From Phormidesmis priestleyi Ana (lineage in GTDB: Bacteria; Cyanobacteriota; Cyanobacteriia; Phormidesmidales; Phormidesmidaceae), in contig LJZR01000010.1 of assembly GCA_001314865.1 (NCBI GenBank), positions 1 through 64,000 on the forward strand: a stretch of DNA of 64,000 nucleotides, written 5' to 3'. Within the stretch, counting starts at the first letter, position 1. Each line of letters opens with the position of its first letter. The notes beneath the pieces were generated by a model. It ran no database searches. It saw only the letters and a list, made by a program, of their open reading frames with translations, and was not told the DNA's origin. A program made the translations under genes and the position numbers. Positions 2,378 to 7,900 of the stretch are shown here, in pieces.

Positions 2378-2530
2378 CAGGGGCCAGTGAGCAATTAGGG
2401 TGAGCAGGCAGTAGGAAATAGCCGAAAAAGCCTTTGCCGGGCGAAGGAAAAAGGCTTCCTACTAAGAAACTACTATATCTTTGGCTGTCTTGAGCTGTCT
2501 TGCGCTGTGTTTGGCTTTACTGAATGCCTA

Positions 2531-2669
2531 ATGAGTAGACCAGATGAGTAGACCAGATGAGTAGGCCAGATAAGTAGGTTAGATAAGTAGGTTAGATAAG
2601 TAGGTTAGATAAGTAGGTTAGATAAGTAGGTTAGATAAGTAGGTTAGATAAGTAGGTTAGATAAGTAGG
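2531..2669. repeat. 13-bp tandem repeat array (about 10.7 copies)
   Basis: The unit ATAAGTAGGTTAG repeats without gaps. The first three units are variants (ATGAGTAGACCAG twice, then ATGAGTAGGCCAG) and the last is cut short. Single or double relatives of the same unit stand beside the palindromic elements at 465 and 20385-20410, so array and element seem to travel together. It lies upstream of the TIR-FGE start and is non-coding. Confidence 0.9.
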
Positions 2670-2699
2670 GCAGTGTTGTTACAAGTAGGATGCCTACAC

Positions 2700-2930
2700 G
2701 TTGCATGCCCCCGTCCCCAACTTTGGGGCTCTGAGGCAAGACGTTCAGCGGCTTCCGGGAGGCGATCTATTACTTTGTTGCGTGCCCCCGTCCCCAACTT
2801 TGGGGCTCTGAGGCAAGACGTTCAGCAGCTTCCTGGTAGGCGATTTGAGTATTTTGGATTCGCGATCTCCCCCGAACTCGGGGAAACCCATTATTGGCTC
2901 AAGGGATAAATCTTATATTTCTGGAGGGGC
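2700..2930 (+). repeat. Two direct copies plus tail of the interspersed element
   Basis: Two copies of a motif (CCCCGTCCCCAACTTTGGGG, then CTCTGAGGCAAGACGTTCAG) start 77 bases apart (2700 and 2777). They are followed by CCCCCGAACTCGGGG (2868) and a segment, GGGAAACCCATTATTGGCTC and onward to about 2925, shared almost exactly with 20514-20550. The frames that run through are open only by composition. The inverted copy is at 676-760. Confidence 0.75.
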
Positions 2931-3019
2931 GAGTGCAAGCACTGGGTTTAATCATCAGCTCAATAAAACCTACCGACCTACTTACATACACACAGATACA
3001 TTCAAAAAACTTGCTCCAG

Positions 3020-3192
3020 ACTTCCCTGAACCCTTCACAGGGTTCTCAGATCGCTTTGCAGGGTTCTCAGATCGCTTCACAAGGTTCTCAGATCGCTTCA
3101 CAAGGTTCTCAGATCGCTTCACAGACTTCCCTAAACCCTTCACAGGGTTCTCAGATCGCTTCGCAGACTTCCCTGAAAGCTGCACAGGGTAG
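3020..3192. repeat. 21-bp tandem repeat array
   Basis: GGTTCTCAGATCGCTTCACAA-type units start at 3041, 3062, 3083, 3104 and 3146, exactly in 21-bp register; the unit at 3125 is a diverged ACTTCCCTAAACCCTTCACA form. Because 21 is divisible by three, frames on both strands stay open (FSDRFTR, GSQIASQ, VKRSENL), but no start signal or family match supports a protein. The array ends about 130 bases before the duplicated tRNA fragment. Confidence 0.8.
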
Positions 3193-3322
3193 TGCAAACC
3201 CTTTACAGGCAAACCAGCAAAGCGAACTGACTTCTGAGGAATAGGCAAATCAATAAAGTACCGCTTTGAGCAGAATCAACAATGCTTTACCTTTTAGAGA
3301 CAAACACCTGCATTGCCTATCA

Positions 3323-3370
3323 AAATCGGGATGGCGGGATTCGAACCCACGGCCCCTTCGTCCCGAACGA
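3323..3370 (-). repeat. tRNA-Pro 3' fragment: distal attachment-site copy
   Basis: These 48 bases are identical to 10395-10442, which run from the 3' end of tRNA-Pro(CGG) through the T arm into the anticodon loop. Identity stops sharply on both sides (3322 and 3371 differ from 10394 and 10443). This is what remains when a tyrosine-recombinase element integrates at a tRNA 3' end: the gene is rebuilt on one side and the displaced piece is left at the other. The fragment cannot fold as a tRNA. Confidence 0.88.
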
Positions 3371-3491
3371 GTCTGTAAATGTCTAAATTCCTCCATTACA
3401 ACTGGGAAACTAGTGTGAGAAGCCCCTGAAAATGGCTATTTTGAGCTGACGGGAATACAAACGACTTGTCCAAATACTGAACCAAACTTTA

Positions 3492-3909
3492 TCAGACCTT
3501 ATTGTCTAGACGCTCATGCTCAATTTCTGCTTCTATTGCCTTCAATCCCTGCTCTAGTTCTTCCTCCGTCGGCAAAACAAGGCGATATTTCGATGCAAAT
3601 ATCTGTTTTCCATCAGCTAAGACGGAGTACTTTGCGATGGCGCAGCCTCTCCTTGCGGAGAATCGCCTCATTCTTCTCCGCACACAAAATCAAACCGATA
3701 GTGGGATTATCATCTTCCCGTCGAAACCGCTCCTCATACAGCCGTACATAGGTATCCATCAGGACATTGGCCAGATGGAGCAGCTTGCCGAGATTTAAAT
3801 CGATCAACACAAAGCATTTCGGCAGGTAGTTGTAGAACACCAAATCCACATAAAAGTGCTCTCCGCCTAGCGTGATGCGACGCTGCCGCGCCACAAACGA
3901 AAACCCTTA
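3492..3909 (-). pseudogene. DUF1016/YhcG-type PD-(D/E)XK nuclease, C-terminal remnant
   Basis: Read on the minus strand from 3906, the frame gives GFSFVARQRRITLGGEHFYV, then DLVFYNYLPKCFVLIDL and DDNPTIGLILCAEKNEA, the conserved nuclease core of the DUF1016 (YhcG) family. A stop directly precedes GFSF, so the N-terminal half of the usual protein is missing. After NEA the frame breaks and resumes in another frame as AIAKYSVLADGKQIFASKYR and LVLPTEEELEQ to the stop at 3492. The break coincides with a short palindromic insertion near 3634-3667; removing 25 bases of it restores NEAIAKYSVL. Such nucleases accompany restriction systems and mobile elements. This copy should be inactive. Confidence 0.85.
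3634..3667. repeat. Short palindromic insertion splitting a HIP1 site
   Basis: On the minus strand the stretch reads GGCGAT, then 25 inserted bases (TCTCCGCAAGGAGAGGCTGC plus GCCAT), then CGC. Deleting the 25 bases gives GGCGATCGC, a HIP1 octamer, and restores the DUF1016 reading frame. The insert has a TCTCCGCAAGGAGA hairpin core of the kind seen in small dispersed cyanobacterial repeats. It is the visible cause of the frameshift in the host gene. Confidence 0.75.
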
Positions 3910-4104
3910 GTGCGTCCAGCTCAAATCAGGACGCAGTGCGTCGCGAATTGGAAACGCCAAATAAAACCGTCGCATGTATCGCAATTGGAGGAACTCAGCC
4001 GTCGCCAGAATTGGGTGCGAATCAACAGCCGCTGCGTTCGCTACAATCTTGCACTCATCAAAGACTGGCTACAATCCAGTGATGAGTTATTATCCTGCGG
4101 ATAA
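3910..4104 (+). CDS. Small ORF, unrecognised, possible gene fragment
   Basis: A GTG-initiated frame of 64 residues contains EELSRRQNWVRINSRCVRYN and LALIKDWLQSS. The C-terminal half has a plausible soluble protein composition and vaguely recalls short conserved cyanobacterial proteins that end in a similar RYNL..I.DW segment, but I cannot name a family. The frame starts at the upstream edge of the opposite-strand DUF1016 remnant, so it may be a fragment. A good intrinsic terminator follows at 4184-4223 in the same direction, which supports a transcript here. Confidence 0.3.
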   Translation: MRPAQIRTQCVANWKRQIKPSHVSQLEELSRRQNWVRINSRCVRYNLALIKDWLQSSDELLSCG

Positions 4105-4183
4105 GTCAATTAGCGAGGCAAGACCTAAACCCGACTAGAAACGTTGTCTTGGTTACAATGAATACACTGAATCTCAGTAGCAA

Positions 4184-4223
4184 CACGGTTTTTAGCTTTC
4201 AATACGGAAAAACCGTGCTTTTT
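4184..4223 (+). terminator. Rho-independent terminator
   Basis: CACGGTTTTT (4184-4193) pairs perfectly with AAAAACCGTG (4208-4217) and is followed at once by CTTTTT. It would end + strand transcription entering from the 3.9-4.1 kb ORF and so insulate the helicase gene at 4375. The rest of the 4105-4374 spacer shows nothing else. Confidence 0.75.
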
Positions 4224-4374
4224 GGCTTAAAAGGGACAAGGGATTACAGTTCTTTGATTGCCGATTTGGATATTATGATTGTGCTGTTTTGACTAAAGAC
4301 AAGGAAGTTTAGTTTCGCTTGCACAAGCGGTTTGATTTACTCATATATGATTAAGGCTTTGGGAAAGAGGACGC

Positions 4375-6237
4375 TTGCCACGCATCTTTGACAATATTGA
4401 CCTTCAGCTTCTTGGAACACTGAAGGATACTTTGGATCAGGCAACCCGAGCTGATTTTTGCGTGGGTTATTTTAACTTGCGTGGGTGGCGGCTTATTGAT
4501 CAAGCGATTGAACAGTTGCCTGATAGCAGCGGTGCGTGCTGCCGATTACTGATTGGTATGCAACGATTACCCAAGGAGGATCTACGACGGAATCTGGCTA
4601 TTATCAGGGATGATAAGCGGATTGACCAAGGGGAAGCTGTACGACTTAAAAAGCTAATGGCGCAGGAGTTTCGTGAGCAGCTGATGTTAGGCACACCTAG
4701 CTCAGCAGATGAGGCTGGCTTACAGCGCCTGAAGGCGCAACTCCGTTCAGGCAAACTCATTGTTAAGCTTCATCTTCGCTATACTTTGCACGCTAAGTTG
4801 TATCTGGTGCATCGTGCTGATCACATTACGCCTATTGTGGGATTTTTGGGTAGCAGTAATTTGACGCTCGCAGGATTGCAACACCAGGGTGAGCTAAATG
4901 TTGATGTGGTTGAGTGCGACGCCGCTCAAAAACTTCAAAGCTGGTTTGATGGTCGCTGGCGCGATCGCTTTTGCCTAGATATCTCTGAAGAGCTTGCCAA
5001 CATTATTGAAGAAAGCTGGGCCAGAGATGAGCTAATTAAGCCCTATTACGTTTATCTCAAGATGGCTTATCACCTTTCGCAAGAAGCGCGAGATGGATTG
5101 AGCCAGTATCAAGCGCCTCGTGATTTTGGCCTGCTGAAGTTTCAGGAAGCAGCGGTGCAAATTGCCGCCCACCATGTAAATAAACGGGGTGGGGTAATTA
5201 TTGGAGATGTGGTAGGGCTAGGAAAAACCTTAATCGGGACAGCTGTGGCTCATCTATGTGAGGAAGACTTTGGCGTCAGCACTTTGATTATTTGCCCTAA
5301 GAACTTGGTCAAGATGTGGCAGGGCTATGTTGATCGCTTTGGGCTTAGAGGCAAGGTGATGTCGGTGAGCCGAGTTGTTAAAGATTTGCCGGAGGTTCCG
5401 GCTCGGTTTCGATTGGTTCTGATTGATGAGAGTCACAACCTACGAAATCGGGAGGGCAAGCGGTATGCGGCTATTCGAGATTATATTGAGCAGAGTGGTA
5501 GTCGCTGCATTTTGCTGACGGCGACGCCCTATAACAAGACTTATCTCGATTTATCAGCTCAGCTACGCCTATTCATCTCGGAAGATAAAGATTTGGGAAT
5601 GAAGCCCGAGGAGCTGATTCGAGAGTTAGGCAATGAGATGGAATTTAGGCGTAAGCATCCTCAAACGCCTGTGCGATCGCTCGCTGCTTTTGAGAAAAGT
5701 GAATTTTCAGACGATTGGCAGCAGCTGATGAGTCGGTATATGATTCGGCGTACTCGCAGCTTTATTAAAAATACCTATGCAGAGCAAGACCCAGAGGATG
5801 ATCGCTACTACTTGGAATTTCCTGATGGCAGCCGTTCTTATTTCCCCTTGCGTCGCCCTAAAACAGTTCAATTTTCTATTGGCAATGCCGACAGCGATCC
5901 CTATGCAGGGCTGTATTCAGATCGGGTGGTAGATATTATTAATAAGCTCCACCTGCCGCGATACGGACTGGGTAACTATGAGCTGAGTCGCCATAAGGAT
6001 CTCCCAACCGCTTCGGAGCAACAGGTTTTAGAAGGGCTTTCTCGGGCTGGGCGGCGGTTAATGGGGTTTTGCCGTACTAACTTATTCAAAAGATTAGAGA
6101 GCAGTGGAGAGGCTTTTATTTTGTCTCTGGAACGACAGAAGAAATATATACAAAATTGCGTAACCATATCATCTAACTATGCCTTCTATTATTCAAAACC
6201 TCATCCCAGAAAAACAAAACCTGGTAACCGTCGCTGA
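4375..6237 (+). pseudogene. PLD-like / SNF2-type helicase, C-terminally truncated
   Basis: The frame starts at TTG 4375 behind an AGAGG ribosome site and opens with LPRIFDNIDLQLL, typical of this family. Residues 1 to about 200 are a phospholipase-D-like nuclease module (ADFCVGYFNLRGW; LHAKLYLVH with the HxK pair; GFLGSSNLTLAGL). Residues 250 onward are the first SF2/SNF2 ATPase lobe: Walker A GDVVGLGKTLIG near 280, DESHN near 350, LLTATPYN near 383. The expected second RecA lobe is absent: after about residue 593 (SLERQ) the sequence becomes unrelated and stops, overlapping the next gene by 59 bases. A protein of 620 residues could be made but lacks helicase motifs IV-VI, so remodelling activity is unlikely. 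PLD-SNF2 proteins occur in restriction and other defence loci. Confidence 0.85.
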
Positions 6238-7900
6238 AAACGATTCAGCGCAGAAAGCTTTGTTGCTCATGATTGAGCACGACTTTAGCCAACTTCCCGT
6301 AATCGCTAGTGATCAAACACTCAAAGGCATGATCACTAGCGACTCCATCCTGCGAGCTGTCAGCAATCTAAAGGTCATTCCCGAACGCCTTAAAGTCTCT
6401 CACGCGATCACTAAAATAACGCCCTATCGCATGGAAGATGCTCTCTCTGAACTCCTAAAAGGGCTGCAAAGTACCAATGCTATTCCAATCATAGATGGCA
6501 AAAACAATATTGAGGCTATTGTTACTAGCTACGATACCGCCGAATACTTCCGCCGCCGAGCTGAAGACCTTATGCTCGCCGAAGATATTGAGCTTAACCT
6601 GCGAGACTTTATCAAACCATCCAACGCCAGCGACACAAGTAATGCAGACGACGACAAAATTAGCCAGCTCATTGAAGCCATCACGCCCTCCAATAACGAC
6701 CTGAAAGCCAAATTCAAGAGCGCCCTGCTTAGCTACATAGCCAAGACTACCGGGAATAAACCCAAGCTCGATCATGAAAATTTTGACTCAGTATTTGAGC
6801 AGTACCTTGCTCGACCCGTCGTTCAAAGGACATTCGATGACCTCACCCTCTATGAGTTGACCCAAATTTTCAAGAAACTTTGGTCTCAATATCAATCTGG
6901 ATTTAACGATCTGGAATGGGATGCTATTGAGCCACTTTTAGACGGTATACGTGAAACCAGGAATGCGATCGCGCACTTTCGCGAAGTCAGCCCACAGCAG
7001 CGCAAACAGCTACAATACTGCGTCAGCCTTTTAAACAACCACAAACCATCGTTTGAACTACCTGAGGCTGAATTGATAACGATTGAGGCCACGAATAGTT
7101 TATCAGCTTCTGAAACTCTCTTACCTGAAGCACACAGCTTTAGCCCACTCGAAGAAGAAGTTGAAGCTAATGATAGCCGCTACGCCCCACTTGCCATTTG
7201 GCTACAGACTCAAGAAGCCGATAGGATAACCTGTACCTTCAAAGAAATTGAAGCCATCATTCAAGACGATCTGCCTCCCTCCGCCCGCCAGTATCGTACT
7301 TGGTGGGCCAACAATACGGTAGGCAATACCCAATCAACCCAATGGCTAGATGTAGATTGGCGAGTCTCTAGTGTCAACATGGCTATTGAGAGAATTGTCT
7401 TTTCTAGAATGGGAGAGAGACAGAGCGCCTACATCGACTTTTTTGGTCAGCTTCAGGACAACCTCAAATCTATCCAAGACCTATCCATAACACCTCAGAA
7501 CAGCCCACAAGGCAAATCTTGGCTAGTGTTCGTGATCAAACGTACAGATCAAGCCTCTATTAAACTACCTGACGTCGTTTTCTCATTCGCTCGTCGGTCT
7601 CGGTTTCGTATCGAAATTTATATTAGTGAAAGAGAAGAAGGAAAAACAAAACAAATATTTGATCGGCTACAGGCTCAACAGGAAGCCATTGAAACCGAAT
7701 TTGGCGCAGCCCTAAGCTGGGAAAGACTCGACCACCGGCACGCCTCCCGCATCGCCTGCTATCGGCCAGACTCTTCCATTACCGACAGCCCAGAACAACT
7801 AAACGAAATACAATCCTGGGCTGTTGAAACACTGCCTAAGTTCTACGCAGCATTATCTGATAGATTCATCGCCGCCCAAAAACAAGCCACCCCAGAATAA
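6179..7900 (+). CDS. CBS pair / HEPN-like / DUF4268-type multidomain protein
   Basis: 573 residues. Residues 1-130 hold two CBS repeats (SQLPVIASDQTLKGMITSDS; NAIPIIDGKNNIEAIVTSYD), which bind adenosyl nucleotides in other proteins. Residues about 160-290 are helical and contain RETRNAIAHF (R261, N262, H266), the R-x4-H pattern of HEPN ribonucleases. Residues about 325-395 resemble DUF7662 (YAPLAIWLQTQEADRITCTF; PPSARQYRTWWAN), a DNA/nucleotide-binding-like module. The C-terminal 170 residues resemble DUF4268 (AYIDFFGQL; GKSWLVFVIKR; FRIEIYI), found in nuclease contexts. No membrane segment is seen. The gene begins inside the tail of the truncated helicase, so the pair was joined by deletion or co-transcribed. 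The combination suggests a nucleotide-sensing RNase-type effector; this is inference. Confidence 0.75.
   Translation: MPSIIQNLIPEKQNLVTVAENDSAQKALLLMIEHDFSQLPVIASDQTLKGMITSDSILRAVSNLKVIPERLKVSHAITKITPYRMEDALSELLKGLQSTNAIPIIDGKNNIEAIVTSYDTAEYFRRRAEDLMLAEDIELNLRDFIKPSNASDTSNADDDKISQLIEAITPSNNDLKAKFKSALLSYIAKTTGNKPKLDHENFDSVFEQYLARPVVQRTFDDLTLYELTQIFKKLWSQYQSGFNDLEWDAIEPLLDGIRETRNAIAHFREVSPQQRKQLQYCVSLLNNHKPSFELPEAELITIEATNSLSASETLLPEAHSFSPLEEEVEANDSRYAPLAIWLQTQEADRITCTFKEIEAIIQDDLPPSARQYRTWWANNTVGNTQSTQWLDVDWRVSSVNMAIERIVFSRMGERQSAYIDFFGQLQDNLKSIQDLSITPQNSPQGKSWLVFVIKRTDQASIKLPDVVFSFARRSRFRIEIYISEREEGKTKQIFDRLQAQQEAIETEFGAALSWERLDHRHASRIACYRPDSSITDSPEQLNEIQSWAVETLPKFYAALSDRFIAAQKQATPE

Follow-up and report, generated by a model that had tools for sequence, protein, structure and literature searches.

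What is the short palindromic sequence that interrupts a nuclease gene in Phormidesmis priestleyi Ana, and how did it come to lie between the two halves of a HIP1 octamer? The window, by which we mean the whole 64,000-nucleotide stretch analysed (contig LJZR01000010.1, positions 1 to 64,000), carries on its minus strand at 3634-3666 the sequence GCGAT, then the 25 nucleotides (nt) TCTCCGCAAGGAGAGGCTGCGCCAT (3661-3637), then CGC; base 3667, preceding the left HIP1 half on that strand, is G. The 25 bases are made up of two side-by-side hairpins followed by AT. When the flanks were joined by script without them, the result was GGCGATCGC, in which one HIP1 octamer, GCGATCGC, was regained and the frame ...CAEKNEAIAKYSVLADGKQIFASKYRLVLPTEEEL... 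read as an uninterrupted YhcG/DUF1016 nuclease. An earlier note, made from the letters alone, had proposed the insertion of a tiny repeat into a HIP1 site, and homologues bear this out. Nuclease homologues were found in 44 of 95 genomes by protein search. We fetched 30 loci, comprising the window itself, one counterpart with the same insert in a related genome (G004), and 28 that align through the site without the 25 bases; none of these 28 has additional residues separating KNEAI from AKYSVL, and none carries the same bases in frame. Many of the 28 do have 6-10 extra residues about 20 residues past the insert site, and the alignment of locus L062 has a 6-residue gap five residues downstream of it. 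The 25 bases are an insertion, placed exactly within HIP1. We consider it very probable that they are a copy of an SDR5-type small dispersed repeat (SDR) that inserts into HIP1, a judgement on identity and target taken jointly and not on movement.

To place the insert among its relatives, we searched by sequence and by architecture. The 25-base pattern (TTCTCC...GCCA), with at most 3 mismatches and no indels, matched once in the window and never in 100 shuffles, and it was also single-copy in the whole genome at that threshold; among 192 genomes, the window insert was matched in 4 including its own, two of these at 3 mismatches. The genome search suggested in the earlier note therefore returned a unique exact copy, and copies of the same architecture proved to be dispersed in the genus. 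That architecture is GGCGNAGCC plus a stem-loop (TTGGCGNAGCC plus a stem-loop, in that orientation). An architecture-only search of ten genomes with a HIP1-flanked pattern gave 7 matches in the window's own genome and 26 in G005 (24 places, two matches being longer readings); the forward pattern was absent from four of the ten, and the reversed pattern gave 0 matches in all ten. With a looser right end, five genomes yielded 86 copies, which were tallied by hand: 44 end in AACGC and 42 in ATCGC, with no G or C at that base, and the insert is 24 nt long in 54 and 21 nt in 25 (79 of 86 together), with 7 of other lengths. The window copy is 25 nt, AT-ended, and has a four-base loop. Across the class, places within 2 mismatches occur in 109 of 388 genomes, which belong to 57 of 159 genera, counts that include single weak matches left unchecked; the reversed control gave 0, and pattern matches reached 41 in one genome (G006). 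Five matches were on named plasmids, most of them weak (E 1e-5 to 0.3). The three plasmid copies that were read (Pseudanabaena, Gloeocapsa and Trichormus) sit in frame inside a gene with edges GCGAT and CGC; the hydrolase-gene copy on plasmid C of Trichormus variabilis ATCC 29413 is a weak match (E 0.3) with both hairpins and HIP1 edges. Several relatives likewise lie in frame within long open frames.

HIP1 is a target of this element family. Searching with the core only, so that the flanks were free, we assembled 71 copies from 170 matches (summed by hand): 18 of 18 from G006, 3 of 3 from G001, 2 of 2 from G000, 10 of 33 from G004, 5 of 7 from G005, 3 of 5 from G003 and 0 of 7 from G002; outside the genus, 30 of 37 genomes contributed a single copy apiece. 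We excluded five places already known to be HIP1-flanked (in G003, G004 and G005) and retained the window's own copy. The left edge was GCGAT in 41 copies and the right edge NNCGC in 52; 51 matched HIP1 at 7 or all 8 bases. Both halves were found in 32, against about 0.004 sites expected by chance among 71 from window base frequencies only, so the edges are flanked by HIP1 halves more often than chance, a test that the earlier note had suggested. Such targets are plentiful: the 64 kb window holds 74 HIP1 octamers, where a second-order Markov model predicts 2.3.

We next compared filled and unfilled sites at five of nine loci in one related genus. Among 50 places fetched from a longer list, 43 gave alignments spanning the site; 14 of these were filled, a count that takes in the five queries, and the other 29 were unfilled. 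The unfilled places comprised 10 with exact HIP1 at the site, 9 that match HIP1 at 7 of 8 bases within the stretch compared (6 at the site, 3 not), and 10 with 6 or fewer. The clearest loci include L085, where the element is AT-ended, 3 places are filled and 5 of 6 unfilled places have HIP1, and L089, where it is AA-ended, 2 places are filled and 2 of 6 unfilled places share the flanks and have exact HIP1; for L080 there was no unfilled place among the fetched matches. The tetratricopeptide gene at L065 offers a comparison within one gene: in one repeat the insert stands between GGC GAT and CGC, and sister repeats read GGC GAT CGC and GGC GAT CGT. In a second tetratricopeptide gene, at L091, sister repeats read GGN GAT CGN, none of them exact HIP1. 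Together, the filled and unfilled pairs indicate that HIP1 came first. They also locate the join. The AA of AA-ended copies (...GCCAA/CGC) is missing from the empty site and is part of the element, so no target bases are duplicated; on the strand of the element the join falls at CGAT^CG, which on the other strand lies between the third and fourth HIP1 bases. For the window copy, the AT end allows two equivalent readings of the join. We dropped a reading of AT-ended copies as a 2-bp AT target duplication because AA-ended copies show AA where AT would be expected.

Stem 1 is maintained by compensatory changes. The covariation set consisted of the 54 copies spanning 32 nt (53 distinct) out of the 86, the 32 copies of other lengths being dropped. 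In these 53 distinct copies of the 24-nt element, in which stem 1 was unconstrained by the search, 93.2% of pairs were standard and 31 cells were compensatory; 2000 shuffles had means of 81.1% and 6.7 cells and maxima of 84.9% and 14 cells, and sliding the partner reduced pairing percentage and compensatory cells alike. Two of the three loop-1 bases and the middle loop-2 base are highly variable while the stems remain paired, which fits an intermediate recognised by shape. Folded as single-stranded DNA, 5 of 5 sequences (both strands of the window copy, a shortened window form made for the test, an AA-ended relative, and a 21-nt relative) gave both hairpins within an outer stem of HIP1 halves. 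Rfam gave no match at the insert.

The interrupted gene is a candidate defence gene (PADLOC family PDC-S02). In the window, the open frame of its upstream part loses register at the insert and ends at a premature stop, and the downstream part alone gave no Pfam match. The earlier note had called the insertion recent; this did not hold up. Contig C186 of G004, a metagenome-assembled genome of a related organism (about 7% contamination; contig coverage 1.6), shares the 25-nt insert at the corresponding position, is 96% identical to the window over 538 bp, and already has one changed base in the left HIP1 half (GCAAT). The insertion is thus not very recent. The G004 gene is whole up to the insert, with a 315-aa open reading frame (ORF) covering DUF1016_N and positions 2-124 of 157 of YhcG_C. 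The window copy is damaged further, so the insert is not the sole lesion there: 317 bp are missing farther upstream, with the 5' part lost or no longer matching, and the IDLK motif, whose lysine is presumably catalytic, reads IDLN. Since the insert is common to both and the G004 gene is otherwise whole as far as the insert, the insert is probably the first lesion of the nuclease gene, shared by the window and G004. Also within the nuclease gene, at 3755-3779, 25 bp between inverted 6-mers (TCCATC/GATGGA) are inverted relative to G004 (L004 1384-1408).

That the insert broke the gene, as the earlier note claimed, is likely; that it did so in one step is unproved, as an in-frame 24-mer with a later +1 loop change gives the same sequence. 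Such a history, in which the usual 24-nt element was inserted in frame and tolerated until an added loop base (three to GCAA) gave the gene-breaking shift, is a serious contender that we place somewhat short of even. It draws on 24 nt being the commonest length in the 86 copies and three the commonest loop length (54 of 71), a four-base loop occurring in 4 of 71, two of which are the window and G004; the in-frame relatives are in keeping with it, as is a 24-nt, GCA-loop, AT-ended copy elsewhere in G004. Yet both genomes in which the filled locus is known carry the 25-nt form, the 24-nt stage was not seen, and a further 25-nt copy occurs in G005 (contig C51). We found far less room for readings that dispense with insertion. 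Precise loss of ancestral bases by the homologues would leave HIP1 too, but it would have to account for all 28 loci other than the window and G004, and for a frame open solely without the insert; we regard it as very improbable. HIP1 halves are common enough (GCGAT at 0.27% of positions) for a chance inverted repeat to fall beside chance halves in a HIP1-rich genome, but the reversed-pattern controls were 0 in the genomes of four pattern searches against up to 41 matches in a single genome, and covariation and the filled and unfilled pairs also stand against it, leaving coincidence the most improbable account of all. We rejected the chance and deletion readings on the strength of homologues, controls and covariation.

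A different question is what moves the element. Hairpins, the lack of a target duplication and a fixed short target are the outcome of Y1 single-strand transposition, which raises the possibility of a REP-like (repetitive extragenic palindromic) element mobilised by a TnpA-REP-type Y1 (HuH) transposase. Y1_Tnp genes were present in 53 of 64 genomes searched, and one copy in G017 lies about 120 bp after a Y1_Tnp fragment. A two-hairpin search of 40 Y1_Tnp neighbourhoods, however, gave four matches in three loci, which had been chosen for the known copy that each has on its contig, and none in the other 37; background DNA of similar amount (299 vs 231 kb, both strands) gave 6 matches including the window's own. 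Moreover, IS200/IS605 ends have a separate guide sequence, for which 24 nt seem too short. With no association beyond the three preselected loci, we set aside the Y1 transposase as mover and consider this origin improbable.

For the SDR5-type insertion into HIP1 that we favour, we envisage that the element moves as single-stranded DNA, or as RNA that is then copied to DNA, in a two-hairpin fold, and that an enzyme of the host or one acting in trans may join it into a nicked or broken CGAT^CG. A single-strand step in movement seems to us about evenly balanced, and the involvement of any particular enzyme much less probable. HIP1 is methylated at CGATCG in many strains. Lengths of 24 and 21 nt keep the frame, so that insertion into a gene usually adds just 7-8 residues; the 25-nt window copy, with its four-base loop, instead shifts the frame of the candidate defence nuclease, which probably then decayed further in the lineage. 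In its fullest form, which we think unlikely, the proposal is that a 24-nt strand forms a three-way junction from two hairpins and the HIP1 halves, enters CGAT^CG through the action of a HIP1-tied enzyme with no duplication, and spreads through many cyanobacterial lineages as a fixed-length, in-frame protein-insertion module, with loop-length variants such as that in the window knocking genes out.

The window copy belongs to a kind of element already described in cyanobacteria. Elhai, Kato, Cousins, Lindblad and Costa (2008, Genome Research) reportedly defined eight SDR families of 21-27 nt, with SDR5 found only in HIP1, and are said to have noted compensatory changes in the paired fold, probable mobility and possible RNA intermediates. 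SDR5 reportedly came mainly from Nostoc and relatives and was confined to one coherent cyanobacterial subgroup. Our copies agree with this description in length (25 nt here, 24 or 21 nt in most relatives), in compensatory structure (stem 1 covariation and the stem 2 variant CGC-TNC-GCG), and in the presence of a Nostocales copy, the weakly matching one on Trichormus plasmid C; they differ in coming from a Phormidesmis-like genus and, when as many as 2 mismatches are allowed, from sampled members of the 57 genera. In a sentence of PMC4390886 quoting Elhai et al. 2008, SDR5 inserts between the third and fourth HIP1 nucleotides, the same position as here, and the same passage has HIP1-directed cutting proposed as part of the explanation of SDR5. 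REP sequences with TnpA-REP (RAYT) transposases, in the portions of PMC6006769 and PMC3116915 that describe them, are likewise short dispersed hairpin repeats of bacterial genomes, possibly moving as single strands, whereas our 40 neighbourhoods showed no Y1_Tnp association and the target here is an octamer. Rickettsia palindromic elements also often insert in frame within protein-coding genes, but the portion of PMC10969869 describing them gives about 150 bp and an own reading frame, against 21-25 nt here, and names no fixed octamer target. Miniature inverted-repeat transposable elements are non-autonomous, structured and dispersed as well; unlike them, the present element lacks a terminal inverted repeat of its own (its outer stem is the split HIP1) and AA-ended copies show no target duplication.

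Several observations weigh against the reading that we favour. Copies without HIP1 halves, which the earlier note had named as a refuting case, do exist, although they are a minority: 20 of the 71 have fewer than 7 of 8 HIP1 bases, 8 of them matching at 4 or fewer, and 6 of the 20 sit in a larger G004 repeat with its own conserved flanks. The 10 unfilled sites without HIP1-like sequence may reflect drift or a misplaced gap, and not all unfilled places are alleles, some being paralogues from within one genome. When folded as RNA, only the window copy (either strand) gave the two-hairpin form and the other 3 of the 5 sequences failed; fold z-scores were modest or weak for DNA and RNA. The SDR5 identity derives from the one quoted sentence in PMC4390886 and the reported content of the 2008 abstract. 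Finally, no mobilising enzyme was found, the search having covered one candidate family, Y1_Tnp.

Features of the nuclease locus. All coordinates are window positions.
Feature	Position	Strand	Evidence or remark
YhcG/DUF1016 gene, downstream part, in another frame owing to the insert	3492..3636	-	tblastn of joined-flank protein to homologues
YhcG/DUF1016 nuclease gene, upstream part	3613..3894	-	ORF; Pfam YhcG_C PF06250, E 1e-22
Right HIP1 half CGC	3634..3636	-	
25-nt insert, very probably SDR5-type, TCTCCGCAAGGAGAGGCTGCGCCAT	3637..3661	-	Not in 28 homologous loci besides the window and G004
Hairpin 2, GGC-TGC-GCC	3639..3647	-	Folds; relatives show variant CGC-TNC-GCG, both sides changed
Hairpin 1, TCTCC-GCAA-GGAGA	3648..3661	-	Folds and stem covariation in relatives; loop 4, usually 3 nt
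Left HIP1 half GCGAT	3662..3666	-	GCAAT in G004 counterpart
Junction of 317-bp deletion, window copy relative to G004	3908..3909	-	

Other repeats were encountered in these searches. On the plus strand of the window, 830-851 reads CGCCC-TCC-GGGCG then GGC-TTC-GCC, with TCGAT on the left and AACTCGC on the right, and is perhaps a diverged relative. In G004, loci L126, L127, L130, L131, L132, L134 and L135 have the core TCTCCTCGGAGAGGCTACGCC, or nearly so, with a two-base loop, within the larger repeat; its conserved flanks are about TTAGGACAATAGTCAT...AACGCTAGCAGCC, and the exact core occurs at at least 17 places. Another two-hairpin repeat, ACTCCTNCGGAGT-CGCTTCGCG-AACA, was found in two genera without HIP1 edges (L191 near 2536, plus strand; L054 near 425, reverse strand).

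Window positions 2531-3190 hold dense tandem repeats with periods of 13 (AGATAAGTAGGTT, 8.8 copies), 77 (1.9 copies), and 21/42 (CTTCACAGGGTTCTCAGATCG). At 3334-3351 (minus strand), there is a weak match to a tmRNA 3' end (E 0.0029, 13.7 bits vs a gathering score of 47); it lies in a stretch that G004 shares and might mark the end of an island. Within 2500-4500, neither a tRNA nor a tmRNA gene was called. Farther along, 4375-7900 contains a gene with PADLOC matches of the HKD and Snf2 kind, then a gene matching PADLOC PDC-S11 whose start looks CBS-like by eye only. These genes and the nuclease remnant may be a decaying defence region.

To our knowledge, such elements are among the smallest mobile elements. 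What we add to the kind already described is wide sampling, empty sites, the AA and AT ends, and a case of gene loss, some of which may overlap with the 2008 paper. The filled and unfilled pairs place the join at CGAT^CG and show no duplication, the locus itself is a case of an insert tied to the loss of a candidate defence nuclease, and HIP1 can now be tested as a site of insertion in an additional group of strains.
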